A stretch of DNA of 40,035 bases, from IMG/VR virus record IMGVR_UViG_3300013137_000043, positions 1 to 40,035 of that record, one strand, 5' to 3'. Made by a program: the position numbers and the translations under genes. Positions within the stretch are counted from its first letter, which is position 1, and every line of letters starts with the position of its first letter. This document shows, piece after piece, positions 1-36,192 of this stretch. This DNA comes from a virus. A model generated the notes under the pieces. That model ran no database searches and was not told where the DNA came from. It saw nothing but the letters and a program-made list of their open reading frames with translations.

Positions 1-131
1 GTGAAAGAACGACTATAAGGTAAACCGATATATTTTTTACATTTCCAACATATTCCTGTAACTGTGTGCCAGCATTCACCCAGTATTTCTTTGGTGAGCC
101 ACTTCTTAAATTCTGGTTTAAGTTCGGTCAT
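1..131 (-). CDS. Partial phage ABA-sandwich-like protein, tandem paralogue
   Basis: The gene runs off the left edge, so only its N-terminal 43 residues are visible. They begin MTELKPEFKKWLT and are nearly identical to the N-terminus of the gene at 445..786, which shows a tandem duplication. The sequence then diverges but keeps the plan GECWH...CWKC, resembling small phage proteins of the BC1872 / ABA-sandwich type, where Cys and His residues come before a central domain. The start codon overlaps the stop of the upstream gene as ATGA, so translation is probably coupled. Function unknown. Confidence 0.7.
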   Translation of the reverse strand, partial: MTELKPEFKKWLTKEILGECWHTVTGICWKCKKYIGLPYSRSF

Positions 132-334
132 TTCCCCTCACTTTTTAAAACACGGTACAACGAAACAGAGAATTTCTCACAGAATGATTGTGCTGTTTTT
201 TTATCCGTTTCTTTGCACAGAACAATATTAAAATTTTCATGGTCACTATAAAAAACACCGATATATTTATTGTTTCCTACATGGCAAACCTGTGTGTACT
301 TTTCCATTAATTCTTTTTCTTTTTGTGTTATCAT
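128..334 (-). CDS. Small hypothetical protein (68 aa)
   Basis: I do not recognise this 68-residue protein. It starts MITQKEKELMEKY and has a predicted beta-rich middle (KYIGVFYSDHENFNIVLCKE). The open frame extends 15 codons further upstream, but AAGGAGGAGAAA lies directly before this ATG and would otherwise be coding, so 334 is the better start. It sits between a small membrane peptide gene and the edge gene, which it overlaps by ATGA. Confidence 0.7.
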   Translation of the reverse strand: MITQKEKELMEKYTQVCHVGNNKYIGVFYSDHENFNIVLCKETDKKTAQSFCEKFSVSLYRVLKSEGK

Positions 335-345
335 TTTCTCCTCCT

Positions 346-444
346 TCATAAAAAAGATAACGCTATTAAAATCAAGCAAACAATAGGAATCAAAGCTATT
401 GTCCCCAATATCATAACTAATATTAGTTTATAAAAGTTCCACAC
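346..444 (-). CDS. Tiny single-pass membrane protein (32 aa, GTG start)
   Basis: A GTG codon directly follows the TAA stop of the upstream gene and is preceded by AGGAGGGGAAATAA at good spacing. The frame codes for 32 residues, almost all hydrophobic after an aromatic N-terminus (WNFYKLILVMILG), so it is a single membrane helix. It belongs with the other one-helix peptides of this phage (1403..1507, 31064..31171, 33512..33601). Function unknown; such phage peptides may act on the host envelope. Confidence 0.6.
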   Translation of the reverse strand: MWNFYKLILVMILGTIALIPIVCLILIALSFL

Positions 445-786
445 TTATTTCCCCTCCTGTTCCCACCACTCTTGCAACGCAAGAAAGAAAGAACTTACCA
501 TTAACATTTCACTTAAATAATGAAGTTGTTTATTCATCATCCACGACAGTATTTCCTCAAAATTATACTTTGATGAAATCTGTAATGATGAAATCTGTAA
601 TGCATTCACCACATCCCCATAGTCTTGCCATGTGGTGAAGGAACGGTTAATAATGTATGGAATAAACTTACTGCACTTTATACAGTAGTTTCCCCCAAGC
701 TTATTAGGCAACTTAAACTTATGCAAGCACTCACCCAGTATTTCTTCGGTGAGCCACTTCTTAAATTCTGGTTTAAGTTCGGTCAT
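445..786 (-). CDS. Phage ABA-sandwich-like protein (113 aa)
   Basis: The N-terminal 20 residues match the partial gene at the left edge. Next comes a possible metal site (GECLHKF...YCIKC) and the pattern TTWQDYGDVVNAL, which resembles the BC1872-like phage ABA-sandwich family (Cys/His start, then W-x-D-x3-A). The start is chosen at 786 because GGAGAAGGAGTTAAA precedes it; the frame is open 7 codons further upstream. Function unknown; this family is common among early phage accessory genes. Confidence 0.7.
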   Translation of the reverse strand: MTELKPEFKKWLTEEILGECLHKFKLPNKLGGNYCIKCSKFIPYIINRSFTTWQDYGDVVNALQISSLQISSKYNFEEILSWMMNKQLHYLSEMLMVSSFFLALQEWWEQEGK

Positions 787-809
787 TTTAACTCCTTCTC
801 CCACCATCC

Positions 810-1334: not shown

Positions 1335-1385
1335 TCATCCGGCGATAAAAACAAATATCACTAAAGCTATTTCTTCTTGATTCAT
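1335..1385 (-). CDS. Possible 16-aa hydrophobic peptide, truncated paralogue
   Basis: AAAAGGAGAAAA precedes an ATG that encodes MNQEEIALVIFVFIAG and then TGA. The peptide aligns almost residue for residue with the start of the 35-aa membrane peptide at 31064..31171, which continues GWIAG where this one stops; at the same codon TGG corresponds to TGA. It may be a real micropeptide or a decayed copy. It is too short for confidence. Confidence 0.3.
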   Translation of the reverse strand: MNQEEIALVIFVFIAG

Positions 1386-1402: not shown

Positions 1403-1507
1403 TTACTCATTTTCATCTTGTTTAGACCAAGAAATACATATAGCTAAACCAACCATACCAAAACAAGAACCAATAAATAGCCCTATAATTAAACCATGCC
1501 AAAACAT
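1403..1507 (-). CDS. Small DUF3789-like membrane protein (34 aa)
   Basis: The start ATG overlaps the TAA of the upstream helix-turn-helix gene as TAATG, with GGAGGATAATAGATA before it. The 34-residue product (MFWHGLIIGLFIGSCFG, then a second hydrophobic stretch and a polar tail) has the look of the very short phage proteins of the DUF3789 kind, with a glycine-rich membrane helix and a charged C-terminus. Location in the inner membrane is likely; role unknown. Confidence 0.65.
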   Translation of the reverse strand: MFWHGLIIGLFIGSCFGMVGLAICISWSKQDENE

Positions 1508-1935
1508 TATCTATTATCCTCCATTTTCAATATATAAAATTCAATAATATGTTTTATTTGCTCCTCTATGGAACGACGTTGCTTTTCAGCCACAGTAACA
1601 ATTAAATCATATAATTCACGGTCTTTAGTAAAATCTAATAGAACTTGTTTTGTTAAAAGTTCTGTTGGTTCATTATCATATTCTTTTATTGAAGGTATAG
1701 AATGTAATTTTCTTTCATTTTTTTCTATATCTAAGGCACGTCTTAATGACATTCTTGATACCCTTGGAGGTATTAAATTATGTTTTCTTATAAAGTATGA
1801 AATTGTATTTTGATTAACCCCATATATAGAAGATATTTCTTTAATAGTTTTTCCTTCTTCTATAGCTGTTTGAACTTCTATCTTTTTTTGTTCTTCATCA
1901 GCAGGAGACTTTATAAATTTTTGTTTTAAAATCAT
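1507..1935 (-). CDS. Helix-turn-helix DNA-binding protein (142 aa)
   Basis: Residues about 27-52 (EGKTIKEISSIYGVNQNTISYFIRKH) form a clear helix-turn-helix of the resolvase/transposase type. Residues about 105-135 (LYDLIVTVAEKQRRSIEEQIKHIIEFYI) look like an Arc/MetJ-type ribbon-helix-helix or other dimerisation helix. There is no SD of its own; the ATG overlaps the stop of the upstream selenoprotein ORF as ATGA, so its translation should depend on ribosomes that read through that ORF. Probably a regulator; target unknown. Confidence 0.7.
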   Translation of the reverse strand: MILKQKFIKSPADEEQKKIEVQTAIEEGKTIKEISSIYGVNQNTISYFIRKHNLIPPRVSRMSLRRALDIEKNERKLHSIPSIKEYDNEPTELLTKQVLLDFTKDRELYDLIVTVAEKQRRSIEEQIKHIIEFYILKMEDNR

Positions 1936-2219
1936 AGATTTTTCAATTTATCAATAACATCTTGTCCGAAGTATTTTTCAGCCGTAAAATTATTGTCATT
2001 TTTATCTATTACAAGAATAGGAACTACACCATCTTTTCCTTTATCTACTAACTGATACCAAGCCATTTCAGTAAGGACTTCTCTTGCTTCATCTAAATCT
2101 GATGAATCGACAGGGTATATACGCCTATCTTCTTCTTTAATAAATGGAAGAAGCTGAACTGCTTCTTCGCATGCAATTCACTTTATATGCCCTTTATACT
2201 TGACGAAAAGCTTTATCAT
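1932..2219 (-). CDS. Probable selenocysteine-containing glutaredoxin-like protein (95 aa, UGA at codon 14)
   Basis: From an ATG preceded by AAAGGAGAATATA the frame is open for 95 codons except for one TGA at codon 14 (2178..2180). The product reads MIKLFVKYKGHIK-U-IAC, giving a UxxC redox motif where glutaredoxins and NrdH-like proteins have CxxC. It continues with GVVPILVID, the cis-proline segment typical of the thioredoxin fold. An 8-bp hairpin with a GU-containing loop lies 9 nt after the UGA (see SECIS entry). The true stop overlaps the next gene as ATGA, and that gene lacks an SD, so the full frame is evidently translated. The alternative is a nonsense mutation of a CxxC thioredoxin-like gene. 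UGA is used as an ordinary stop elsewhere, so codon reassignment is excluded. Likely role: thiol-disulfide exchange, for example electron supply to a reductase. Confidence 0.75.
2147..2168 (-). promoter_or_regulatory. Bacterial-type SECIS element (predicted)
   Basis: Immediately downstream of the in-frame UGA, the RNA forms GAAGAAGC-AGUUCA-GCUUCUUC: a perfect 8-bp stem with a 6-nt apical loop. The loop has G in its second position followed by U, and starts 17 nt after the UGA. These match the known bacterial SECIS rules (upper stem of at least 4 bp, loop of 3-14 nt, G in the first two loop positions, 16-37 nt from UGA). It would recruit host SelB with Sec-tRNA. Confidence 0.65.
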
Positions 2220-2247
2220 TATATTCTCCTTTGTTGTGTATGTAAAT

Positions 2248-2276
2248 ATTATATATTACTTTTCCGAAATTGAGAA
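2248..2276 (-). promoter_or_regulatory. Class 2 phage promoter (TTCTCAATTT / TATAAT)
   Basis: Minus strand: TTCTCA at 2276..2271 followed by ATTT, a total of 17 bp, then TATAAT at 2253..2248. This is one of five copies with the same layout (also 8636, 13014, 24707, 29297). It lies about 30 nt before the start of the selenoprotein gene and should transcribe the block to the left edge. Confidence 0.7.
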
Positions 2277-2284
2277 AAAAACAA

Positions 2285-2375
2285 ATTTATGGCCCACGGT
2301 TGTACAAAATAAGAGTCATTGACCATGAACATAAACAATTAGTGGTTAATGTTTTATTTTCCGTGGGCCATAAAT
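2285..2375 (-). terminator. Long hairpin with 15-bp arms, probable terminator
   Basis: Arms at 2285..2299 and 2361..2375 are perfectly complementary over 15 bp (ATTTATGGCCCACGG type). The enclosed 61 nt extend the stem with a 7-bp helix (AAAATAA/TTATTTT) and a 9-bp helix containing one wobble pair. On the minus strand the hairpin is followed by TTTGTTTTTTT, so it can terminate transcripts coming from 2377..2802, just before the class 2 promoter. The loop is larger than in ordinary terminators. Confidence 0.5.
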
Positions 2376-14385: not shown

Positions 14386-17300
14386 ATCAGCCCCTCCTCC
14401 TTTCTCATCATAAGAACTGAAACTTTCTGTGCAAATGTTTTTATCCCTTCTCTCCATTTCTCTTTCTTATCTTTTTCCTGCCCATATAAAAGAGAGGCAG
14501 GATGAATACAATAGCAAATCCAGCAGCCATACTTAAAGCTCCACTTTGCAGTTCCGCTCAAATCGTATATTCCGGATGTCTTATTTTCGAAGAAATGAAC
14601 GCATGAATTTCCTATCCCGAGAGCGACTCCAGGATTCAGCTCTTTAAGCTCTTTATCTAAATGCTTCCAGCACATTTTCGTCTTCGTTAAATCATATTTT
14701 TCTTTCGAGGAACCTGGAAAGCATTTATAGACATTTGTCACATGACAATATTCTCTTTTTATTCCATGCTTGTAGCATTCTTCCCATAGAAGCCCACCGG
14801 AGTCTCCAATGAATCCAATTCCTTCTCTGTCTTCATCCCTTCCTGGAGATTCTCCGATGATTGCAATATTATATCTTCCGAGAGATGGAAGAACAGGTGC
14901 TCTTGCGAATTCTCTTAAAGGACAATCATTACACTTGCTTACAGATTCGTCTCGATAGCTTATCTTTCTAAGCTTCAATTCTTTCTTTCTCAGGTCTTCT
15001 TTCAAGAGAGAGAAAGAAAATAATCCGCTCAATTCCATCAATTCATCAAACGAAGGTTCATAATCTGGCTCAAAGGAATGCATTTTCTGAAGAAGAGAGT
15101 TGAGAGAGTTTCCACCCTCCATCACCTTTACTTCTTTTTTCTTCACAGGCTCTTCTTTTTTCTGAGAGAAAAATCCTTTTATCTTCGGACCTTGCGGTTC
15201 CTCTTTTTTCTTCCTCTCTACAGTTCTTATTTTTTCTCCTATATCTCCTCGAAAGATTCTTTCACTCTGTTTTTCACCAAGCCCTTTAACTTCGATAAAT
15301 GGACAGTAAATTTCATCCCCTTTCACAATCCAGAGCTTTGAATGGCTGATTCCTACTTTCGGAAGTTTTATTTTCAATCCCGATGCATATACTTCCTCCA
15401 CTATCTCTTCCTTCTTCCCTTCGCTTCCGTATGAGAGAGAAGCAGAATAGAATTCATTTGGAAAGTAGTGCTTAAAATACATGCACCAGTACCCAATCAT
15501 CGTGTATTCAACGGCGTGGCTACGATTAAATCCATACGCGCCGAAATTATTCATTTCGTCGAAAAAATCTTCTGCCTGTTTCCTCGACAAAGTCCCTTTT
15601 TCTTCGCATCCTTTGACAAATTCTTCTTTGAATCTATTGAATGCCTCCAATCCTTTCGATTTTCCGACAACCTTTCTTATCTTCTCTATTGTCGTCCATG
15701 AAAGCCCTGCGAGCTCGTAGAGCGCAAGCATGAGCTGCTCTTGATAGACGATGATTCCGTGGGTATCTTTTGTTATTTTCTCAACAATAGAATGTATAGG
15801 CTCCCACTTTTCTTTCCCTCTCCTTCTCATAACAAATTTATCGACCATTCCACTCCTCAGTGTTCCAGGTCGATAGAGAGCATTTATCGCAACGAGGTCC
15901 TCGAAGCTTGATACTCTCATGTCTTTACAGAGCTTTGTAATTCCATGAGAGTTGAATTGAAAGCAACCAGAAGTATCGCCTTGAGCGAACCTTTTGAGGA
16001 TTTTCTTGTCATCGAGAGGAATTTTGTGGAAGATTATCTCAGGCTTTCCATTCAGTGCAATGAGCCTGTTCGCTTCCGAAAATACAGAGAGAGCATTGAG
16101 TCCAAGAATATCCATCTTCATCAATCCCATTTTCTCTGCATCGTCTTTTTCCCAGCAGACAGCAAGTTCTCCTCCTTTGCAGTAGATAAGATTTCCTCTC
16201 TTTCCTTCTCTTAAATCATCCTCTGAAATAACACAAGCAGCAGCATGAGTGCCCGTTCCTCGTATGTTTCCTTCAAGCCTCATTGCTATATCAGACTGGA
16301 GAGGATATTTTTTTGCAAAATCTCTTCCTTCAGATGTCTCATCAAATGATGATTTTAAGATGTCCGTGTCAACTTTTGTATATTCAAGAGATTTTGCAAA
16401 TTCATCTACATCCTTTGAAGGCAAGTCAAATACTCGTCCGACATCTCTTATTACAGACCTTCCTTTCAGATACATGAAAGTACTAACGGATGCGACATTA
16501 TATTTTCCATATAGCTCTCTTATGTGCTCAAATACAAGGTGCCTTTTTGAATCTTCAAAATCAATATCGATATCTGGCAAGTCATTCCTGTCAGGACTTG
16601 TAAATCTCCAGAAAAGAAGATTGTATCTGAGAGGGTCTACCATCGTTATCCCCATCAGATATGCAACAATGCTTCCTCCAACAGACCCTCTTCCTGGACC
16701 AATCATGATATTATTTTCTTTACACCAATTTACAATTTCCCAAACAATTAGAAAATATTTTATGAATCCTTTTTTCTTGAGAAGGTCGATTTCCTCTCGG
16801 AGTCTCTTCATGTAAGGCTTTTCATCTGGAACCTTCTGCCATATTTTTTCGAGATATCCTTCATCGACTATTCTCAAAAAGTCTTCTTCTGTGAGAGCTC
16901 CATTTTTCGATTTCGGGTCAGGAAGATTAACAGAAAGACTTTTTATTCTAAATGAATTGCACTGCTCTGCTATCCTTAGAGAGTTCTCTATAAATTCATC
17001 TCCCTGAAGATTGAGAGTCCTCGAGCAAGCTATTTTCATCTGATTTGCACTCTTTAGAAACAATTCATCCGTATCGAATTTCCATCTATCTTTGTCTGTC
17101 CATTTCGCATTCGATTGAATAGAGAGCATTGTTTCCTGAGCAGTCGCATCATCTGAATTGACATAGTGGCAATCATTTGTGAGAACAACAGGAATATCTC
17201 TTACATCCCTCAACGATTCTCTCATTGATAAAACAAGAGAATTATATCTCTCCTGAAATCTTGCCTTTAAAGGCATCACCTCAAACGCAAGACAATCTTT

Positions 17301-18804: not shown

Positions 18805-19773
18805 TCACATACTAAAAATACTACTCTTCGGTTTAAATGTCAGAGTCTTCTTCTTCTCATTTATCCATTTTTCGAGATGCAAGAAGAATTTCATATTTGC
18901 CCTACATCTCTCCTCCCATGTTGTTGAGAGCTTTTCGAAAGTATACCCTGTCTCCTGGAGCTCTTCTTCGAAGATTCCATAAAATTGAAACTGCTCTTTT
19001 GTTGTCTGTTTATCTGAAATCTTCACAACGACAGGAGGCTTTGAGAAATCTGGATTCTTGTATCCTCCGACAGGGAAATACGCACATCCGAATCCGGCAG
19101 CAATTCTCCATGTAGCGGCATCGCAGCTTGTCCAAGGAAATTCAAGAATCATAGATGAACCGAAAACAGCAAACCCATGAGTCTTCACCTTGATATTATT
19201 TTTCGCAAGATATGAAAATGCTCTATCCATCCAGAGCTTCTTCTGGTCAGGAGGAACGTCGTTTGCAGGAGAGATTCCAATATAATCTGTCTTCTCAACC
19301 ATCTTGTCGAGCCATTTGAAATGCTCTCCTTGGTGAAAGACATGTATCGGAGTAATTCCATCCTCGAGAAATCGGCAGAGGTTTTTATATCCATCCTCTG
19401 CCGCTTTTTCAATTATTGCCTTGTCCTCTTTCTTCACAGAAGAGTTGAGATTTATCGTCTCGCCTTTCTTTCCAGGAATGACATCGAGATTGACAACTCT
19501 CACTATCTTGTTTCTCTTCTCTCCTTCAGATATTGCTCCGTGGCAATATCTAATATATTTTTCGAAGTCAATCTGGTCGCCTTTATTCCAGGCAGAGAAG
19601 GCGCCTGAATCAATTAATACTTTTCCAGGTGTGTCCCCAGAGACATCCATCCAGCTCTCGAATTGTTTCGGATAGACGAATGAGCAGAGCTTATTTCTCA
19701 CTCCTATCTCATACTCTTCCGGAGATGCCTTCCCATCCCAACATCCCGCAAAATACATCGTAACTTCGTTCAC
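18805..19773 (-). CDS. dpdA: DpdA-like DNA guanine transglycosylase (7-deazaguanine insertion)
   Basis: A member of the tRNA-guanine-transglycosylase superfamily that acts on DNA. Visible: MYFAGCWDG at the N-terminus, VLIDSGAFSAWN (residues 52-63, with the probable catalytic Asp), VVNLDVIPG, PIHVFHQGE, DYIGISPANDV, and KTHGFAVFGSSMILEFPWTSCDAATWR. This last region is highly characteristic of phage DpdA proteins. The enzyme would exchange guanine in phage DNA for a 7-deazaguanine base made by the upstream Que enzymes, protecting DNA from host nucleases. It starts at GTG, overlapping the queF stop as GTGA, with AAAGGAG ahead. Confidence 0.8.
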   Translation of the reverse strand: MNEVTMYFAGCWDGKASPEEYEIGVRNKLCSFVYPKQFESWMDVSGDTPGKVLIDSGAFSAWNKGDQIDFEKYIRYCHGAISEGEKRNKIVRVVNLDVIPGKKGETINLNSSVKKEDKAIIEKAAEDGYKNLCRFLEDGITPIHVFHQGEHFKWLDKMVEKTDYIGISPANDVPPDQKKLWMDRAFSYLAKNNIKVKTHGFAVFGSSMILEFPWTSCDAATWRIAAGFGCAYFPVGGYKNPDFSKPPVVVKISDKQTTKEQFQFYGIFEEELQETGYTFEKLSTTWEERCRANMKFFLHLEKWINEKKKTLTFKPKSSIFSM

Positions 19774-21218
19774 GGCCGATACTCCTTTGAGTGATATTCT
19801 GCGACGACGTCAGTTGTAATTCCCCCACGAGCATTGAAGCTTCCTACAACCTTCATCCAGAGAGGGTCACAAGTATCAACCAGGTCTTCGAGGATTTTAT
19901 TGGTTATCGTCTCCATGAATGAGCCGTGGCCTCTATAGGAAAAGAGATAGAGTTTGAGAGATTTTGATTCGATGCACTTCTTTCTCGGGATATATTCTAT
20001 CTCGATGGAGGCGAAATCCGGTTGGCCGGTTTTTGGGCAATTATGAAGCACTACTCCATTTCCAAAAAAGTTTTCTATGTCCTCGACCTCGAGATTGTAT
20101 ACATCTTGCCTTCCATGAGGCTCAACGGAAACAACTCGATGATTAAGAGAAGGTAGCTCGGAAACTCTTTTTCGAAAATCTTTTGTTTCGAGAGAAGTTC
20201 GAACTTTTCCTCCTGATTTAATAATCCATTGAGAGATTGTCGTTCCATCAACTCCGTAGAACTCAGAGAGCTCAAGAATAGTATATCCTCTCTGATAATA
20301 TTGAGAGCACTCTTTCATCAATTTTCTATGAATAATGCTCTCAGGCTTGGCCAAAAGAGATTCTTTCTGAGTTCTTTTGTCAACCAGATGTCCAATTCTC
20401 GATTCAATTGTTGAAAAATCGCACTTGAATTTTTTAGCTAATGAATTAAAATTTTCTCCGGAATTGTACATTTCGATGAGCTCTTCTACCGAAGGAAGAG
20501 ACGAAGAATATCCATATTTCATTGATTGGTGATGACTGAAATGAGAAGACTGATTTTTTATTTCAAGATTTTCAATTTCATTATTAAAATGGCAATGGTC
20601 TTTGTGGTGAATCAGCTCATCCTCGAGATATCTCCCGAGAAAGCATTCCATTATGAGTCTGTGACGAGCCTTTCCTCGAATACAATCGAAAGATTTCTGG
20701 TCAGCTACTAACCTCATCCCCGGCTCCAGCTCCGAAGCCAATATCCAAGAAGTCTTTCCCCACCCCGTCGATATTAGAACCGGATGGTCTGGAGTCACTA
20801 CAATCTCTTTCGGGATTCGAGTTATATGGTCGTCTCCTTCTTTTCCGCTGCAGTGCAAGTGCTCAAGATTGATTTTCACGACAGAAGCATCTTCTCTTGT
20901 TTTTCTTACAGAGTGATATTTTCTCGCAACTGGTTCTCTTGTCTCTAAATCAAATCCGAAAATAATACCCTCAGTCCCCACCAAATCTTTTATAGGGATT
21001 CCATCAGGATATTTTTCTTCGTTGCGAGAAATATCCATCAAAGTATCTCCGGAAACGCAAAGAGAAGAAAATTCATTTGTCCGGAAGAGAATTCGATATT
21101 CCCTCAACTGAAACTTATTCTCGAATGTCTCGAGAATTTTAGTATTCGGCCCGCCGAGCTTGTAGATTGTTTTCTTTGCGCCGAGACTTTTGAGATGATT
21201 TGTCTTGTCTTTTTTCAT
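19770..21218 (-). CDS. queF: QueF, NADPH-dependent preQ0 reductase, interrupted by an intein
   Basis: The N-extein (residues 1-53) ends FRTNEFSSL and the C-extein (394-482) begins CPKTGQPDFASIEIEYIP and continues ESKSLKLYLFSYRGHGSF and FNARGGI. Joined, they read as an unbroken 142-residue QueF with EFSSLCPKTGQPDFASI, in which the Cys is the nucleophile that forms the thioimide with preQ0 and the Asp of GQPD is the acid. A 340-residue intein sits between (next entry). QueF reduces preQ0 to preQ1, implying that preQ1 is the base inserted by the neighbouring DpdA. SD AAAGGAGAAA; the first 80 nt overlap the previous gene. Confidence 0.88.
   Translation of the reverse strand: MKKDKTNHLKSLGAKKTIYKLGGPNTKILETFENKFQLREYRILFRTNEFSSLCVSGDTLMDISRNEEKYPDGIPIKDLVGTEGIIFGFDLETREPVARKYHSVRKTREDASVVKINLEHLHCSGKEGDDHITRIPKEIVVTPDHPVLISTGWGKTSWILASELEPGMRLVADQKSFDCIRGKARHRLIMECFLGRYLEDELIHHKDHCHFNNEIENLEIKNQSSHFSHHQSMKYGYSSSLPSVEELIEMYNSGENFNSLAKKFKCDFSTIESRIGHLVDKRTQKESLLAKPESIIHRKLMKECSQYYQRGYTILELSEFYGVDGTTISQWIIKSGGKVRTSLETKDFRKRVSELPSLNHRVVSVEPHGRQDVYNLEVEDIENFFGNGVVLHNCPKTGQPDFASIEIEYIPRKKCIESKSLKLYLFSYRGHGSFMETITNKILEDLVDTCDPLWMKVVGSFNARGGITTDVVAEYHSKEYRP
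20040..21059 (-). mobile_element. Intein with HNH homing endonuclease inside queF
   Basis: 340 residues (54-393 of the precursor). Splicing block A is CVSGDTLM with the nucleophilic Cys1; block B contains VTPDHPVL (TxxH); blocks F/G are DVYNLEVEDIENFFGNGVVLHN, with the penultimate His and terminal Asn, followed by the +1 Cys, which is also the QueF catalytic Cys. The middle carries an HNH endonuclease (LIHHKDHCHFNNEIENLEI, then HFSHH) and helix-turn-helix-like segments (TILELSEFYGVDGTTISQWI) that may recognise DNA. All splicing residues are present, so it should be active. Confidence 0.88.
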
Positions 21219-21582
21219 TCATTTTCTCCTTTGATTTTAAAAATCTTCCTATATCCTTTTTCTCTTTGTAGATTTCCTTGAATTTTCTAAGCATTCCTCG
21301 AGTTACAATATTTTCATAAATATATTTTCCTTTAGAAATTTCCCGGAATGCTCCAATTCTCGGGTCTGAAAACGTCCTCAGCGTGTCGCCGAATTTCGCA
21401 TTTCCTTTATCAAAAAACTCTTTTTTTATCTCATCATCTGTCATTTCAGGATTCATAACTCTCGCAAGAGATATCTTGAACCAATGAGATGGAAATCGAA
21501 AAGGAGGTCTAACCACCGACATCAAGATAAATGTCTTTGCTGCTAAATCGGTCATCACAATTCTCCCGAAAAGTCTTCCCAT
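21139..21582 (-). CDS. Unknown protein within the deazaguanine operon (147 aa)
   Basis: Not recognised. The N-terminus is hydrophobic (MTDLAAKTFILMSVVRPPFRFPSHWFKISLARVM), the middle has DDEIKKEFFDKGNAKFGDTLRTFSDPRIGAF, and the C-terminus is strongly basic (KSKEKMNEKRQDKSSQKSRRK). It sits between the folE fusion and queF, and its tail overlaps queF by 80 nt. Position suggests a role in DNA modification or substrate handling, but that is inference. Confidence 0.6.
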   Translation of the reverse strand: MGRLFGRIVMTDLAAKTFILMSVVRPPFRFPSHWFKISLARVMNPEMTDDEIKKEFFDKGNAKFGDTLRTFSDPRIGAFREISKGKYIYENIVTRGMLRKFKEIYKEKKDIGRFLKSKEKMNEKRQDKSSQKSRRKENNLQARRAEY

Positions 21583-21585
21583 AAC

Positions 21586-22518
21586 TTATCTCCTTTGAAT
21601 TCTTGACATGAATTCATCTTTGCATCCGTCTTTATTTGTTGAAAAGCATCCCCTTACAGCTATCACCTCGAAAGGAGAATCGAATTTTTTCACTCCTCTC
21701 ATTTCCTTGCAGAGATGCCTTCCGCTCATTATCAATATCAATCCTTTCGGAGAAAGTGTTTCTTGCATGCAATCTACTATTTCATGAACGAGCCTTTCGG
21801 CTATCTGGAGTTTGTGAGAATAGAAATCAATCACTCTCGATATCTTACTTGCCCCAATCAAGACCTTGTCGGGGATGTACCCGAAGCTGAATTTTCCAAA
21901 GAAGGGAACGACATGATGCTCGCAGTGTGAGAAAAAATACCCACTATCAATTATCATGTCGTGGTAGAGTATTCCGTCTTCTCCGTTGTTAATTGTCGTT
22001 ATCTTCGGAAATTTATTCTTATCATATCCCTCGAACACCTCTTCCCACATCTTGACAACTCTCTCCGGAGTTTCTCTCAGCCCTGGACGATTCAGATTTT
22101 CTCCGATGAATTCGAGCATCCTCCTGACGATATCTTCTCCTTTATTCTCCTCTTCTTTCTCCCACGGATAACACACCCATCTATCCTCTACTCGAAGACA
22201 AAGGGTTTTTTCAAAGGAATTTTCGACTTCGGGTCTTATGTGAATAGAGACAAAATGATTGTAAGGAAATCTCCTTCTTGTTTCTCCGGAATCAATTATA
22301 TCGTCAACAACAAGAACTCCCGGAGAATCAGCGAAAGCTCTGTGGACCTTTTCAAGTGAGAGCAATCTACTCAGCCTGTCAGCAAGAAGATTTCCGCCAT
22401 TAGGGACTCCATAAATTCCAGAAACTTTTCCTCGAACCCCAGAATTCGAAATCACTCTCGAGAGCTCAACACAATCATCATTGAATTCGTCCCATGTATA
22501 ATAATGTTTTTTCCTCAT
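21586..22518 (-). CDS. folE: Phosphoribosyltransferase-GTP cyclohydrolase I fusion
   Basis: Residues 1-125 are a type I phosphoribosyltransferase: TWDEFNDDCVELS, GIYGVPNGGNLLADRLS and the PRPP-binding loop VLVVDDIIDSGETR (68-81), ending near WVCYPWE as in Gpt-type xanthine/guanine PRTases. Residues 130-300 are GTP cyclohydrolase I: NRPGLRETPERVVKMW, FFSHCEHHVVPFFGK (zinc Cys199 and the catalytic His pair), VLIGASKISRVIDFYSHKLQIAERL and SGRHLCKEMRGV (zinc Cys270). FolE makes dihydroneopterin triphosphate, the first intermediate of the preQ0 pathway. The PRTase half could regenerate GMP from guanine. GAGGAGTAAG before the ATG. Confidence 0.85.
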   Translation of the reverse strand: MRKKHYYTWDEFNDDCVELSRVISNSGVRGKVSGIYGVPNGGNLLADRLSRLLSLEKVHRAFADSPGVLVVDDIIDSGETRRRFPYNHFVSIHIRPEVENSFEKTLCLRVEDRWVCYPWEKEEENKGEDIVRRMLEFIGENLNRPGLRETPERVVKMWEEVFEGYDKNKFPKITTINNGEDGILYHDMIIDSGYFFSHCEHHVVPFFGKFSFGYIPDKVLIGASKISRVIDFYSHKLQIAERLVHEIVDCMQETLSPKGLILIMSGRHLCKEMRGVKKFDSPFEVIAVRGCFSTNKDGCKDEFMSRIQRR

Positions 22519-22519
22519 C

Positions 22520-23209
22520 TTACTCCTCGAATTTTAGAATTAACGGGTCCATGAGTCCAGCCTCCTCGAATCCCTTTGCTCTCAACTTACAGGCAGGACA
22601 GACGCCACATGGAGGCTCTTTTCCTTCATAGCAGGTAAGAGTGTGCTCATACCATTCGAATGTTTCCAGTCTCGCCATAAGAAGGACAGTCTCTGCCTTT
22701 GTGAGCCACATGAGAGGAGTGTGGATATCAAGATTGCAATCTCCAGCAAGAGAAATCGCCACATTCGCTGCCTTGATAAAGACGTCTCTGCAGTCAAAAT
22801 ATCCTGAGAAATCAGTGGAACATACCCCTGTCATGAGATTCGCTATCCCTTTTCTATACGCAATGGCGGCAGCAGATGAAATGAAGAAAAGATTTCGAAA
22901 CGGAACAAATGATGCAGGGACAGAATCATCAAATTTGCATTTCTCAGAAATATCCGAATTTGAATCCATCAATGAAGATTCTGTCACCTGAGAGAAGAGT
23001 CCCGCAATATCGACAACTGCGTGAGATTTCGCTCCTGCTATTTCGCTCAATTTCTTCGCCTTCTCAAGCTCCAGCTTATGCCTCTGTCCGTAGTAGAAGC
23101 TTACAGTATGGACCTCGATGAATGTCTTCATCGCAATAGAGAGACAGGTTGCAGAATCCTGCCCGCCCGACAATAAAACAATTGCTCTTTTTTCATCTAA
23201 ATTTCTCAT
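22520..23209 (-). CDS. queC: QueC, 7-cyano-7-deazaguanine (preQ0) synthase
   Basis: ATP-pyrophosphatase with SGGQDSATCL (14-23), FYYGQRHKLEL, VPFRNLFFIS, GVCSTDFSGYFDCRDVF and the C-terminal zinc cluster CYEGKEPPCGVCPACKLR. All QueC hallmarks are present and the length (229 aa) is standard. It converts 7-carboxy-7-deazaguanine to preQ0 using ATP and ammonia. It overlaps the upstream unknown gene by 4 nt. Confidence 0.92.
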   Translation of the reverse strand: MRNLDEKRAIVLLSGGQDSATCLSIAMKTFIEVHTVSFYYGQRHKLELEKAKKLSEIAGAKSHAVVDIAGLFSQVTESSLMDSNSDISEKCKFDDSVPASFVPFRNLFFISSAAAIAYRKGIANLMTGVCSTDFSGYFDCRDVFIKAANVAISLAGDCNLDIHTPLMWLTKAETVLLMARLETFEWYEHTLTCYEGKEPPCGVCPACKLRAKGFEEAGLMDPLILKFEE

Positions 23210-23652
23210 TCAATTTTTCCTCCCATTTTTGAAAGAAGTTTTCTCTCCGGGTCTCCATAGAGCTTATCTCCCCACTTATTTTTAGCACCAAATCCGTGAA
23301 GAGGAGAAAGGTTTTCAAATGAGAGAAGCATATCGAAAAACTTTTGATGAAACTCCTCTACACTCTGAATCGATTGAAATCTCGCAATGAACCTATCCAT
23401 CTTCATCTGCCATTTTCGATATTCTTTTGTGAGTTCCGGATTTGTGACAAGTGGGCTTTTCTTTAGTTCAATGAAATTCTCTTTTGCCATTTCACAAATT
23501 TCAATAAAATTGCCCTTTAATGTTTCGAGAGGAGAGAATTGATATTTTCCAGTAAAATCAAAAATCGAAATAAGTGCTTTGAAAATTTCCTCAGGAGATT
23601 CTCCCAAGTAATATGTTCCACCATTTATCTTCACATCTACAATCACTGACAT
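23206..23652 (-). CDS. Unknown protein between queE and queC (148 aa)
   Basis: Not recognised. It begins with a beta-hairpin (MSVIVDVKINGGTYYLGESPEEIFKAL), is helical in the middle, and ends HGFGAKNKWGDKLYGDPERKLLSKMGGKIE. It overlaps queC by 4 nt and follows queE by one base, so it is a firm member of this operon. A role in the modification pathway is possible. Confidence 0.6.
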   Translation of the reverse strand: MSVIVDVKINGGTYYLGESPEEIFKALISIFDFTGKYQFSPLETLKGNFIEICEMAKENFIELKKSPLVTNPELTKEYRKWQMKMDRFIARFQSIQSVEEFHQKFFDMLLSFENLSPLHGFGAKNKWGDKLYGDPERKLLSKMGGKIE

Positions 23653-23653
23653 C

Positions 23654-24331
23654 TTAGACCTCTTTCTCGCCGGCTTCCGGCCATATATACTTATGGATTT
23701 GAAGATTAACTATACAGTCTGTGATTCTGTCATTCTTCATCTCTTCTATCAATTTCGCAGCATCAAATTTCCCTCCATGGCAAGGACTAAATGCAAACTT
23801 CGCTTCGCATCCTTGAAGTCTAAGCCGCCTCATCACCTCCTTTGCTTGAGAATAATCCGCAATGCTTGTAATGACAAATTTAATAAAATCATTTTTCCAT
23901 AAAGGAACGAAATTCTCGTCCTTCATATGCCCATCCATCCCTGAGCCTTTCAGCTTATAATCCATTACGAATGAAACATCGAATCTGAATTCCTCATAGG
24001 GCTCGACAGAGAAAAATCCATTCGTCTCAATTGAAACTTTAAAGCATCTCTTCTCTGTCAGCTCCCTAAGAAGGTACTTTAAATCATCTTGAGATTGATA
24101 GAGAGGGTCCCCTCCGGTAAGAGTGACATTTTCGCATCCTTCAGCAATAATAGAATTGACGATTTCATCGACGGTCATAATTCTTCCAGAATCTTTCTTT
24201 TGCGCCCTCCTTGTATCACAGTATGAACATCTGAAAGGACATCCTGCAAACCTGACAAATGTCGCCATCGAGCCCTGGAGGCTTCGATTTACTTCTCCAT
24301 TAATGCTTCGAAATACGCTCAAAACTTTCAT
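23654..24331 (-). CDS. queE: QueE, 7-carboxy-7-deazaguanine synthase (radical SAM)
   Basis: Radical SAM enzyme with the cluster motif CPFRCSYCDT (CxxxCxxC) near residue 30, preceded by FRSINGEVNRSLQGSMATFVRFAGC and followed by VTLTGGDPLYQ and SIETNGFFS, as in QueE. It converts 6-carboxytetrahydropterin to 7-carboxy-7-deazaguanine. The start is set at 24331 (MKVLSVFRS) because TGGAGAAAAG directly precedes it; the frame is open 6 codons further upstream. It overlaps queD. Confidence 0.9.
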   Translation of the reverse strand: MKVLSVFRSINGEVNRSLQGSMATFVRFAGCPFRCSYCDTRRAQKKDSGRIMTVDEIVNSIIAEGCENVTLTGGDPLYQSQDDLKYLLRELTEKRCFKVSIETNGFFSVEPYEEFRFDVSFVMDYKLKGSGMDGHMKDENFVPLWKNDFIKFVITSIADYSQAKEVMRRLRLQGCEAKFAFSPCHGGKFDAAKLIEEMKNDRITDCIVNLQIHKYIWPEAGEKEV

Positions 24332-24686
24332 CTTTTCTCCATTCGGCATAGCTGTTAGTTGTTTCGTATAATCTCACTCTTACAAGACCAGGAAGGAAAG
24401 GAAGAAGCATTATTGCGATATCTTCAACCATAACCTCTGCTGTTGGATTTTCCCATACATCGTTGAGGAGCTCATGGTCTAATTTTTCTATAACAACCTT
24501 ATCGACCGATATTTTCAACTCACCGAAGTCCATTATCATTCCTGTTTTTGGACCTTGGGCTTTTATCTTTCCTGCAACTTCAACTTCGAGAATATAGGTG
24601 TGACCATGCTGGCGGGAACATTTTCCATCGTAATTTGGAAGATAGTGGGCAGAATGAAACTCGAATTTCCGCGTAATAGAAATCAT
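24300..24686 (-). CDS. queD: QueD, 6-carboxy-tetrahydropterin synthase
   Basis: 128-residue PTPS-fold enzyme. It has FEFHSAHYLP and CSRQHGHTYILEVEV (zinc His ligands and the catalytic Cys), TGMIMDFGELK, KLDHELLNDV, NPTAEVMVEDIA and VRLYETTNSYAEW. It converts the FolE product to 6-carboxytetrahydropterin. It is the first gene after the class 2 promoter at 24707, with GAAGGAGAAAAATA before the ATG. Confidence 0.92.
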   Translation of the reverse strand: MISITRKFEFHSAHYLPNYDGKCSRQHGHTYILEVEVAGKIKAQGPKTGMIMDFGELKISVDKVVIEKLDHELLNDVWENPTAEVMVEDIAIMLLPFLPGLVRVRLYETTNSYAEWRKDESFERISKH

Positions 24687-28791: not shown

Positions 28792-30142
28792 TCCATCCTC
28801 TTTCGAAATAGAGAGAAAGTCTTTCGCCAAAATGCTTCACAAGATAGTACTGGGATGGATTGAAGAAATCAGTAAGAATCAATTCAGTTTTCCCTTCATC
28901 TCTTCTTACACCTCTTCCTATATTTTGAAGAAGAGCAATCTCGTCTTTTCCTTGAGCGGCAAGACTAATATTATTGAGAGAGGGGATGTCGATTCCTTCT
29001 TTCCAGGCAGTCGTTGCTACAACTGCCATTATTTCTTTTCTGTGAAGACTGATTCTAATTTTTTCTCTTTCTTCTCCTGACACATTTCCGTAAACAGGAG
29101 AAGAGGGGATTTCATATCTATTTAAAAGTGCTTGTATTTTGAGAAGGTGGTTAATCTGTGAAACATAGATTAAAGACGTGAGCCCGATGTCTGAGAGTCT
29201 CTTAACTTCCTCCACAACAATTTTATTGTAGAGATAATCCTCGACGATTCCTTGCCTGTAAACATCCTTGTAATTCTTTAGTTGTGCGATATCATTATTA
29301 TAAGGTATTTTTATCAAATTGAGAAATACATTTACAATTATTTTTCTTGAAATCGCCTCAGGATGCATCATCTCTGAGATGATAGGACCAATATGGCCTT
29401 CAAGACAGAGAACTCCTTCTTCATTTAAAGGAGGAGTTGCTGTAAGCCCTATTCTGTAGAGAGCGTTGAGACCTGAGAGAACCTTTGTCCAAACGCCATC
29501 AAACATCCTTACATGATGAGCTTCATCCACAATTATCATGTCGAAGTGGTCTTTCAGAGACTCAACATCTAATCGAGCGAAGCTCTGGATTGTTGAGACG
29601 ACAACATCTGCTGTTATCTCTTTTTTCCCTTCACCTATTGAGCAGATGTTGTTGATTCCGTATTCTTTGAATTTTGTTGTTGTTTGTCGAAGGAGTCCGA
29701 TAGTATTGCAGAGAAAGAGAACTTTCGGTCTGTAGCCAACAATGGATTTAATAGCAAGAGCTGCAATGAAGGTTTTTCCTCCTCCGGTAACAACCACTAT
29801 CACACCTCTCTTGTGATAGAATATTTTTTCGACTGCATCTATCTGATAATCTCTTGCCTGGAGACCGGATAATTCAGATGGAATTCTATATTCGAGAAAT
29901 TTTTCTGGTCCTCCACCTATAACCTCAAAAGGAATATTTTCATTCTTGAGATATTCGATTGCTCGAGGAAGAAGGCCTCTTAGAAATATCCCTTTAGAAT
30001 CAACAAGACTTGAAAGATAGAAACATTGCTCTTTTGAATATTGCTTCTTTCTCCAATACTCTTTTTGATATTGAAGAGCTGGTTGTAGACGCTTGTAATC
30101 ACTTGTATGGCAAAATACAGGGGAGATTATATCAATCTTCAT
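28733..30142 (-). CDS. SF2 DNA/RNA helicase (UvsW/ResIII-like)
   Basis: 469 residues with Q-motif-like LQARDYQIDAVEKI, Walker A VVTGGGKTF (about 117-125), VVVSTIQSF, DEAH box IIVDEAHHV, GLTATP (motif III), and the C-terminal motifs SLIYVSQINHLLKIQALL, VATTAWKEGIDIPSL and LLQNIGRGVRR (motif VI). This is the UvsW/type III restriction helicase family, used in phage recombination-dependent replication and R-loop or fork processing. Start at 30142 after AGGTAGAGAAA. A class 2 promoter lies inside the gene at 29297..29325. Confidence 0.88.
   Translation of the reverse strand: MKIDIISPVFCHTSDYKRLQPALQYQKEYWRKKQYSKEQCFYLSSLVDSKGIFLRGLLPRAIEYLKNENIPFEVIGGGPEKFLEYRIPSELSGLQARDYQIDAVEKIFYHKRGVIVVVTGGGKTFIAALAIKSIVGYRPKVLFLCNTIGLLRQTTTKFKEYGINNICSIGEGKKEITADVVVSTIQSFARLDVESLKDHFDMIIVDEAHHVRMFDGVWTKVLSGLNALYRIGLTATPPLNEEGVLCLEGHIGPIISEMMHPEAISRKIIVNVFLNLIKIPYNNDIAQLKNYKDVYRQGIVEDYLYNKIVVEEVKRLSDIGLTSLIYVSQINHLLKIQALLNRYEIPSSPVYGNVSGEEREKIRISLHRKEIMAVVATTAWKEGIDIPSLNNISLAAQGKDEIALLQNIGRGVRRDEGKTELILTDFFNPSQYYLVKHFGERLSLYFERGWIGKEFEKSYRQNPSPDRKL
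29297..29325 (-). promoter_or_regulatory. Class 2 phage promoter inside the SF2 helicase gene
   Basis: TTCTCA at 29325..29320, 17 bp, TATAAT at 29302..29297 on the minus strand; 28 of 29 bases match the deazaguanine operon promoter. It is embedded in the codons for IPYNNDIAQL of the helicase. It would make a transcript covering primase and the following structured element, initiator and DnaB-like helicase, independent of the upstream promoters. Confidence 0.65.
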
Positions 30143-30915: not shown

Positions 30916-31089
30916 TCATATAGAGGCGCTTATCTTCTGCTCAAGGCCAAATCGAAATCCATATCCGAAGGCTCTTGAAAGGGCAGAAGAGAGGACTGCG
31001 TAGTCAGATTGTGTTTTGATTATGTTGCATTCCTTGAGCTCTGCAAGGATTTTTTCGAGCTCTTCATTTGATTCTTTTTGATTTTTCAT
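30916..31089 (-). CDS. Small hypothetical protein (57 aa)
   Basis: Helical protein (ESNEELEKILAELKECNI, then YAVLSSALSRAFGYGFRFGLEQKI). The glycine-aromatic C-terminal helix suggests a small domain that might contact membrane or protein. GGAAGGAGGGAAA precedes the ATG at 31089. It overlaps the one-helix membrane peptide gene upstream by 26 nt. Function unknown. Confidence 0.6.
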   Translation of the reverse strand: MKNQKESNEELEKILAELKECNIIKTQSDYAVLSSALSRAFGYGFRFGLEQKISASI

Positions 31090-31171
31090 TTTCCCTCCTT
31101 CCATTCAAATTACCTGCTATCCAACCTGCTACAAATACAAATATAACTATGGCTATTTCTTCTTGAGTCAT
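31064..31171 (-). CDS. One-helix membrane peptide (35 aa)
   Basis: Starts MTQEEIAIVIFVFVAGWIAG and ends in a polar tail. A single membrane helix is clear. Preceded by AAAAGGACGAGAA. A shortened copy exists at 1335..1385. Membership of a group of tiny membrane peptides in this phage suggests an envelope function, unproven. Confidence 0.6.
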   Translation of the reverse strand: MTQEEIAIVIFVFVAGWIAGNLNGRRENEKSKRIK

Positions 31172-31263: not shown

Positions 31264-32313
31264 CTAATTATTGATTACACTCCAGTCTTTCTCCGAAAGC
31301 TCGATTATGTTTCCGCCAGTCCTTTCCAAGAATGCCGCTCTATCTGCATTTTCGACTTCTCTGCCGACTGCTGTGATGGCGTTTGCGAGTCCCCACCGAG
31401 TCAAGTCTCCATCTGAAATCAGATTCTTGAACATCTGGTCTTTCTCGTCCGCCGAGAAAGAGAAGCGAGTTGTAACATTTTCGATAACGCTTTCCAGTTT
31501 TCCGGAAATTGGGATTCCAGAAGCAACCTTCAGCTTCTCAACTCCTGCCTGGAAGAGAGAGACGTCTGAGACAGCAGCCTTCACCATATCTCTGACCGTC
31601 ATCATGAACGCCTTCATATCAGCGGCAATGGTTTCCTGCTGAAAGTATTTTGTATCGACATATCCATCTTCTCCAAGTTTTCTGCCGATATGGGCTTTCC
31701 GGAGAGTTTCAGAAAGAACCATTCCGTTAAGACATTTGAGGCGCCAGACGAGAGGTTCTACTCGGACAGCACCGAGTCCGATTTCTGAATTTGAAACCAT
31801 GATGCCGGCTTGAACGATGTCGTTTACTTTCACCATGTCCTGGATTCGAGGAGAAACGACCTGGATGTAAAGATTTGTATCTGTCAGGTTAGCAGATTGG
31901 ATTTCCAGGTCTTCGATGCCCTTCAGACCTTCCATTACGCCAAGCGCAACCGGGTAATTATCGTATGGACGATACCGGTCCGATAGAATAGCCCGGACTC
32001 TTCCGTCCAAGGTGCGAACCAGGCGCTTCTCGGATTCTGGCTTCTTCAGCCACTGATTGACGTTGAGGCACAGAAGGTCAGGAGCCTCTGTCCTCATCCG
32101 GTCGTAATACTTCTTCGGAATTTGGAGCCTCTCCGCCATCTGCAGATGAGCGTGTTCTGTGAGACCGAACTTTCCGATAGAGGGGATGTCCAGGAGTGGA
32201 AGTTCTTCCTGCTCGACCATCGAGAGAGACTGTGAGGAGATGATGAAATCTTGCTTCGCCTGTTCCACTCTCTCTACCTCTTGCCACAGTGTGTTGATAG
32301 ATGAACCCTTCAT
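31264..32313 (-). CDS. DUF932-like phage/plasmid protein (349 aa)
   Basis: The core YYDRMRTEAPDLLCLNVNQWL, RTLDGRVRAILSDRYRPYDNYPVALGVM, GIMVSNSEIGLGAVRVEPLVWRLKCLNGMV and KAHIGRK match the DUF932 family common on phages and plasmids. The biochemical role is unknown; members often occur in early accessory regions. The start is at 32313 after AAAGGAGGAAAAGAA; it overlaps the preceding small zinc gene as ATGA. Confidence 0.75.
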   Translation of the reverse strand: MKGSSINTLWQEVERVEQAKQDFIISSQSLSMVEQEELPLLDIPSIGKFGLTEHAHLQMAERLQIPKKYYDRMRTEAPDLLCLNVNQWLKKPESEKRLVRTLDGRVRAILSDRYRPYDNYPVALGVMEGLKGIEDLEIQSANLTDTNLYIQVVSPRIQDMVKVNDIVQAGIMVSNSEIGLGAVRVEPLVWRLKCLNGMVLSETLRKAHIGRKLGEDGYVDTKYFQQETIAADMKAFMMTVRDMVKAAVSDVSLFQAGVEKLKVASGIPISGKLESVIENVTTRFSFSADEKDQMFKNLISDGDLTRWGLANAITAVGREVENADRAAFLERTGGNIIELSEKDWSVINN

Positions 32314-35766: not shown

Positions 35767-36192
35767 TTAGAATGTAGAAATTTTGAATTCTTCGCAACGA
35801 CCGAGTTTATAGAGTTTCCAAAAGACCTCTTCCGGCTGAAAGAAATCTGCATCCCCTCTTCCAAGGTCTTTTCTCTGAATGAAAACATCTATCCACTCAA
35901 GTTTCTTGTGAGAAAGATAGGAGACTGTCAGCTCGATTCCGAACATTCTCTTATTCTCTTCCTCGACCGGAATTCCGATGACTACTTCTTTGTGTGAGTC
36001 GGATGAGCGCATCGGGTGGGTCTTTGCGACGTATTTATATGTCGCCATCAGCTTGCAGAGGTGCGCCCGGATGAGAGCTTTTTCTTCTGGAGAGTTGAGG
36101 AGGTATCCGGAGTCGCATGCATCCGGAAAGATTCTTGTTTGCTTCTTTGCCAGCTCTTCGAAAAAAATTAAGCTTTCTTTTGATACCATCAT
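35767..36192 (-). CDS. Hypothetical protein (141 aa)
   Basis: Mixed alpha/beta protein: helix ESLIFFEELAKKQTRIF, then EKALIRAHLCKLMATYKYVA and HKEVVIGIPVEEENKRMFGIELTVSYLSHKKLEWIDVFIQ. AAGGAGACCCAGACA before the ATG at 36192. No family recognised. Confidence 0.6.
   Translation of the reverse strand: MMVSKESLIFFEELAKKQTRIFPDACDSGYLLNSPEEKALIRAHLCKLMATYKYVAKTHPMRSSDSHKEVVIGIPVEEENKRMFGIELTVSYLSHKKLEWIDVFIQRKDLGRGDADFFQPEEVFWKLYKLGRCEEFKISTF

Follow-up and report, generated by a model that had tools for sequence, protein, structure and literature searches.

Does the UGA codon that interrupts a small gene of this phage specify selenocysteine (Sec), or does it end translation? The gene lies in a 40,035-nt window, the whole stretch of phage DNA that was analyzed, and the original prediction described its product as a probable phage-encoded selenoprotein, glutaredoxin-like and with a UxxC site, whose UGA is followed by a SECIS hairpin. 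If this were true, a bacterial virus would be using the 21st amino acid in a gene that functions only in Sec-decoding hosts, with a limited host range and an infection tied to selenium supply. Genes of this kind in phages are easily missed because gene finders stop at UGA.

The UGA-interrupted frame and its signals

The predicted frame of 95 codons with a TGA at codon 14 as its sole break was borne out by direct reading of the sequence. The frame extends from an ATG at 2219-2217 to a terminal TGA stop at 1934-1932 (Table 1), and in translation the internal TGA lies within the motif K-U-I-A-C, at the position where a redox-active Cys had been expected. With TGA treated as a stop, no ORF of at least 50 aa overlapped positions 1936-2376 in any frame. 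The gene calls leave a gap of 441 nt at this locus, against a median gap of 10.5 nt; 19 gaps are longer than 80 nt and three exceed this one, large gaps being due in part to the roughness of the gene caller, which was our own.

Table 1. Features of the locus, with positions in the window
Feature	Position	Strand	Basis or remark
UGA-interrupted gene	1932..2219	minus	95 codons and a stop; proposed selenoprotein of thioredoxin fold with a UxxC site; occupies most of the 441-nt interval between gene calls
In-frame UGA at codon 14, proposed to encode Sec	2178..2180	minus	sequence read; same bases in the parent contig IMGVR_UViG_3300013136_000004
TGC, Cys17, second UxxC residue	2169..2171	minus	sequence read
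SECIS-like hairpin, stem GAAGAAGC/GCUUCUUC, loop AGUUCA (2155-2160)	2147..2168	minus	folding and fit to the model in the available text of PMC13188914
G-V-V-P-I (codons 64-68), proposed to form the cis-Pro loop of a thioredoxin fold	2016..2030	minus	P67 aligned to the Pro that is invariant in phage glutaredoxins; role inferred
Shine-Dalgarno AAAGGAG, 6 nt ahead of the ATG	2226..2232	minus	sequence read
Promoter-like element CTCAATTTC-n2-AAA-n3-AATATATAAT	2248..2274	minus	ahead of the UGA-interrupted gene; ends in TATAAT; repeated in the parent contig; putative function
Terminator-like 15-bp inverted repeat (2361-2375 / 2285-2299), then a T-run	2285..2375		end of the upstream gene; read from sequence
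Downstream gene, 142 aa, helix-turn-helix DNA-binding-like	1507..1935	minus	weak HTH, MerR and terminase-small-subunit-like matches; ATGA overlap; no Shine-Dalgarno

Coding signal was detected beyond the UGA. A run of 81 open codons after the TGA has a P of ~4e-4 at the local base composition, and the codon-usage log-odds score downstream of the TGA was +22.3 bits in frame versus -5.8 and -4.3 bits in the two alternative forward frames. Scores of +3.2 to +10.5 bits were obtained for the three reverse frames of the same stretch, each with 2 to 6 stops. The GC content by codon position was 0.57, 0.25 and 0.17. The window is contained in a virus record of 53,700 nt, IMGVR_UViG_3300013136_000004 (the parent contig), from which it differs by 1 mismatch in 40,035 nt, at window position 30122. 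An assembly error at the codon-14 TGA is less likely because the TGA stands in both assemblies, which represent a single lineage. These results supported a gene that is intact and has good signals, with a single in-frame UGA.

The promoter-like element upstream of the gene was found in two other exact copies (at 31395 and 46223) and one single-mismatch copy (at 35773) on the parent contig, with two looser variants at 15112 and 19702, and a scan for the element yielded matches in the parent contig only. This repeated element is likely to represent a class of phage promoter. At the other end of the gene, the stop and the next start codon overlap in the sequence ATGA, and the downstream gene had no Shine-Dalgarno-like motif by a simple test, both as the original prediction had them.

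One alternative is that the UGA is a true stop that ends a 13-residue leader peptide, with the remainder of the frame untranslated or separately started. TGA is a usual stop in this phage, as had been predicted, and terminates 34 of 81 plus-strand gene calls on the parent contig, the PolIII gene included; an alternative code in which TGA specifies Trp was ruled out on these grounds. Against termination at codon 14, the next in-frame ATG, GTG or TTG is an ATG at codon 52, which would leave 44 residues, the coding signal is strong across codons 15-95 as a whole, and the next gene is without its own Shine-Dalgarno motif. We regard a true stop as extremely unlikely.

A second alternative is a recent nonsense mutation, in which codon 14 was formerly a Cys codon, or another codon one step from TGA, and the product has been lost. 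In favor of this alternative, the TGA is known from one lineage only, the window and parent contig differing at 1 of 40,035 positions. Against it, the rest of the frame is undamaged, and the promoter-like element and Shine-Dalgarno sequence are intact. Furthermore, a single change would also produce TGA at nine other codons of the gene, so a chance hit would fall on codon 14 about 1 time in 10, and the downstream gene, which has no Shine-Dalgarno motif, would lose its ribosomes if the UGA only terminated.

The hairpin downstream of the UGA

A stem of 8 bp starting 9 nt after the UGA and a loop, AGUUCA, starting 17 nt after it had been predicted, and both distances were measured as such. The bacterial SECIS model quoted in the available text of a 2026 review (PMC13188914) specifies a loop of 3 to 9 nt, an upper stem of 4 to 16 bp, a G in the first two loop positions, 16 to 37 nt between UGA and loop, and a minimum free energy of -7.5 kcal/mol or lower. 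We applied our own version of this model, limited to perfect stems. The hairpin agreed with every term of the model as given there, in line with the claim that it matches published bacterial SECIS rules: the loop has 6 nt with a G at position 2 and a U next, the stem has 8 bp, the UGA-to-loop spacing is 17 nt, and the energy is -10.3 kcal/mol when the hairpin is folded alone and -13.1 kcal/mol over 41 nt.

The selectivity of this test was examined across the parent contig and related phages. On both strands of the 53.7-kb parent contig, 26 of 2141 TGAs passed, the codon-14 TGA among them. There were 11 ATG frames on this contig that were headed by a Shine-Dalgarno sequence and contained a TGA with 40 or more open codons after it; the gene under study was the only one to pass the SECIS test, and only 2 of the 11 had an overlap of at most 4 nt with other gene calls. 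A wider scan covered 354,667 nt from 18 phage records or parts of them (this one and 17 related records) and combined a Shine-Dalgarno sequence, a UGA with at least 30 open codons, a nearby Cys and a SECIS pass. Three frames were recovered: the gene under study and two more that lie on the minus strand of one related record (G756) and did not look gene-like by eye.

The stability of the hairpin depended on the length of RNA considered. For the 41-nt stretch, the fold was equalled or beaten by 1 of 200 shuffles (z -3.2), and for 49 nt, 2 of 200 shuffles were as good (z -2.8). At 81 nt a different fold was favored over the hairpin, and 23 of 200 shuffles did as well (z -1.2). The probability of the hairpin in free RNA was 0.05 at 60 nt, 0.22 at 81 nt and 0.97 at 140 nt, another fold winning at 60 and 81 nt. 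When the UGA was held unpaired, as it is in the ribosome, the probability rose to 0.97-1.0 at all three lengths. Random synonymous versions of the gene were used as a further null: 1695 of 20,000 versions drawn with phage codon usage passed the SECIS test (8.5%) and 848 reached -10.3 kcal/mol, while with local base composition 356 of 20,000 passed (1.8%) and 151 reached that energy. The protein sequence itself thus favors a hairpin, and the synonymous null is less impressive than the count over all TGAs.

Sec-containing glutaredoxins of bacteria provided a positive control. A Pfam glutaredoxin search of 99 genomes from the phylum of Desulfopila gave 141 matches, of which 32, by hand count, had one TGA inside, and 24 of these 32 were read (L184, L201, L204, L210 and the range L212-L231). 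An in-frame TGA is accordingly a common feature of glutaredoxins in these 99 genomes. In all 24, the TGA occupied the first position of CxxC, CxxT or CxxS. Two layouts were seen among the 24, one with UxxC/UxxS and one with UPxT, and most proteins of the second layout end in GFGG. The same SECIS test was passed by 10 of the 24, and by 8 of the 15 that were grouped as CxxC/CxxS type, a group that left out eight CxxT proteins and L225, which has UPFC with the tail of the CxxT group.

As is proposed for the phage gene, these bacterial genes encode small redox proteins with a UGA at the first Cys of CxxC, and like it they have a SECIS-like hairpin right after the UGA. They also resemble it in the loop, where GUU begins at position 1 or 2 of the best hairpin, passing or not, in 12 of the 15 CxxC/CxxS-type controls and 0 of the 9 others (12 of the 24 read). 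This likeness, which was noticed after the fact, is not explained by shared protein sequence because the GUU derives from different codons: mostly GAG-TTC or GAG-TTT in the controls and, in another reading frame, GCA-GTT-CAG in the phage gene. A loop GUU was present in 3 of the 26 passing hairpins of the parent contig, that of the phage gene included. The distance from UGA to loop differs, being 20 to 23 nt in 14 of the 15 CxxC/CxxS-type controls (those with a hairpin) and 17 nt in the phage gene. A covariance model built from the SECIS elements of the 15 Sec-glutaredoxins scored the phage hairpin at only 5.4 bits, a value exceeded at 26 or more other places in 199 kb, which puts it outside that family as judged by sequence, and an Rfam search gave no SECIS-type match.

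These figures bear on the nonsense-mutation alternative, under which the hairpin would be a by-product of the codons for EEAVQLLPF. That 1.8 to 8.5% of synonymous versions yield a passing hairpin is compatible with such an origin. Set against the control rates of 10/24 and 8/15, the same null suggests that the hairpin weighs against the mutation by a factor of perhaps 5 to 30.

Hairpins that follow stop codons can promote read-through. A third explanation is that some tRNA, whether ordinary or a suppressor (one for Trp, for instance), reads the UGA with help from the hairpin, at a low level of full-length product and without selenium. This phage encodes two paralogous small membrane peptides on the minus strand, one of which, at window positions 1335-1384, has a TGA stop where the other, at 31064-31171, has TGG, and the pair may be taken in favor of such read-through. 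The TGA-bearing peptide has no SECIS (+1.8 kcal/mol), and no tRNA gene was detected in the window or the parent contig; moreover, ordinary read-through accounts neither for a UGA at the redox position of UxxC nor for a hairpin at SECIS spacing. We consider this explanation very improbable.

The predicted protein and the search for relatives

The prediction of a glutaredoxin-like product was upheld as to the UGA at the first position of C/UxxC; the profile match was weak and was mostly lost when codon 14 was masked. The product had no Pfam match up to an E value of 10, no NCBIfam match and no match to phrog_22 (glutaredoxin), so that a significant match to either glutaredoxin profile, PF00462 or phrog_22, was not obtained. 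Residues 10-54 matched phrog_2670, which is annotated as of unknown function, with an E value of 0.008. In hhalign comparisons with nine phage NrdC-type glutaredoxins, the product scored 41%, the best of 57 proteins (the product, its copy masked at codon 14 and 55 other phage proteins), versus 2% for the masked copy. In an hmmsearch with the phage glutaredoxin profile, it ranked first of 3312 read-through ORFs, with an E value of only 0.12, and dropped out of the top 8 of the 3312 when the TGA was masked. Against 21 bacterial glutaredoxins it scored 20% and ranked second of the 57, an unrelated phage protein being first with 33%; with the bacterial profile it was outside the best 8 of the 3312 ORFs.

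In the NrdC alignment, C14, C17 and P67 fall on invariant columns. The segment GVVPILVID, proposed to supply the cis-Pro of a thioredoxin fold, is present downstream of the UxxC motif with P67 on its invariant column, and P67 may have the cis-Pro role on the strength of that alignment. An AlphaFold single-sequence model was poor (pLDDT 48), and Foldseek gave no fold match. A thioredoxin-fold redoxin would have a layout of beta1-UxxC-alpha1 with a cis-Pro farther on; such a fold is weakly suggested by the layout of the product, the assignment depending mostly on the UGA being read as Cys or Sec.

The closest comparison among phages is T4 NrdC glutaredoxin (phrog_22; PDB 1aaz and 1aba), which is likewise phage encoded and shares K-C/U-x-x-C-[DE] after the first strand and a comparably placed Pro. 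It differs in having Cys rather than Sec, in its identity of ~25% in the alignment and in a GGF motif that is absent from the product of the UGA-interrupted gene. The bacterial Sec-glutaredoxins are cellular and match PF00462, unlike the phage product with its lack of Pfam and NCBIfam matches, and the GHIK segment before the U is found in the phage product and not in theirs.

A tblastn search for homologues with a Cys codon, or a TGA with a hairpin, aligned at codon 14 had been proposed as the confirming test, and it provided no confirmed relative in phages or plasmids. Three of the 15 weak phage hits were inspected: one was part of a tail protein, one a protein of 151 aa in which no CxxC was aligned, and one an antisense stretch; the 19 weak plasmid hits covered residues 26-73 only. 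Among viral contigs the parent contig was the sole match, and the 17 related phage records held no homologue. Six genome searches (49, 395, 299, 288, 301 and 294 genomes; 1626 in sum, a few counted twice) yielded three weak matches in all, one with an E value of 0.036 and two, at 0.002-0.003, that by eye resembled FtsA and XdhC and were taken as chance. Overall, no homologue containing Cys or Sec was found in viral contigs, genome contigs, phages, plasmids or ~1626 bacterial genomes, in searches of low sensitivity. This absence is weak evidence because the searches are blind to all but fairly close relatives and were run without a positive control for this query.

The Sargasso Sea survey, in the available text of PMC1088965, accepted candidates only with at least two Cys homologues; by this standard the phage gene does not pass and would not be accepted yet. 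A later survey of GOS data left orphan TGA candidates undecided, according to the available text of PMC2398784. That no homologue with a conserved TGA was found is also consistent with a nonsense mutation, as is the low prior for selenoproteins in phages, which counts against Sec. Together with the state of the frame and the hairpin described above, this evidence leaves a nonsense mutation, in our assessment, an unlikely origin of the TGA, and the strongest rival of Sec decoding.

Proposed Sec decoding and comparison with known systems

We consider it probable that the gene encodes a UxxC thioredoxin/glutaredoxin-like selenoprotein made with host SelA/B/C/D. The original prediction of a phage selenoprotein stood as to the intact gene, the UGA at C/UxxC, the hairpin of the SECIS model and the presence of the TGA in a second, longer assembly; the searches yielded no homologue with Cys or Sec, and the glutaredoxin profile match was weak. 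Sec insertion, the fold, the redox partner and the use of host machinery are what we infer from these features. Host ribosomes would initiate at the strong site at 2219, and host SelB with GTP and host Sec-tRNA would bind the hairpin 17 nt past the UGA, so that Sec is delivered and termination avoided. The product would be a 95-residue redox protein of thioredoxin fold with Sec as the first active-site residue (Sec14-Ile-Ala-Cys17). Ribosomes that pass the UGA would continue across the ATGA overlap into the downstream gene. The probable role of the UxxC site is disulfide reduction in the infected cell, comparable to the role proposed for phage glutaredoxins in reducing ribonucleotide reductase.

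A phage contribution to the Sec machinery, which the original prediction had also suggested, was not supported. ARAGORN detected no tRNA genes in the window or the parent contig, and no match to tRNA-Sec or SelB was obtained in either record, both of which may be incomplete. Genes for tRNA-Sec have been reported in Basilisk-like Bacillus phages (available text of PMC6145125); these phages share with the present one a gene tied to Sec decoding and differ in that it is a tRNA gene and not a selenoprotein gene. A viral SelA has been reported in a vent virome, in the available text of PMC5513705.

An extension of the selenoprotein reading would make the UGA a selenium gate. Charged Sec-tRNA would be needed to pass the UGA, to make the redoxin and to reach the DNA-binding-like downstream gene by coupling, and phage regulation would thereby report on the host's selenium or anaerobic state. 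On this view the switch would also include the competing fold, in which the SECIS loop is paired with the region around the UGA. We regard this extension as highly speculative and improbable.

Glutathione peroxidase selenoproteins of poxviruses, as described in the available text of PMC8310308, are likewise virus encoded and need host Sec machinery; they differ in belonging to eukaryotic viruses, in using a eukaryotic SECIS and in being another enzyme. No phage-encoded selenoprotein was found in the open-access literature among the matches listed, and the words phage, virus and viral are absent from the main text, as available, of the 2026 inventory of prokaryotic selenoproteins (PMC13188914).

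Other features of the phage were noted in passing. A cluster of 7-deazaguanine genes on the minus strand (window positions 18805-24686) includes a member of the queuine tRNA-ribosyltransferase family (phrog_887) and QueF, with QueC-, QueD-, QueE- and FolE-like genes recognized by eye, and suggests modified DNA or tRNA. The QueF-like reductase gene (19770-21218, minus strand) is split by an intein with an HNH endonuclease. A gene family whose members start with M(T/S)E(L/I)KPEFKKWLT is present in several copies, at window positions 1-807 and at 43649-45485 of the parent contig.
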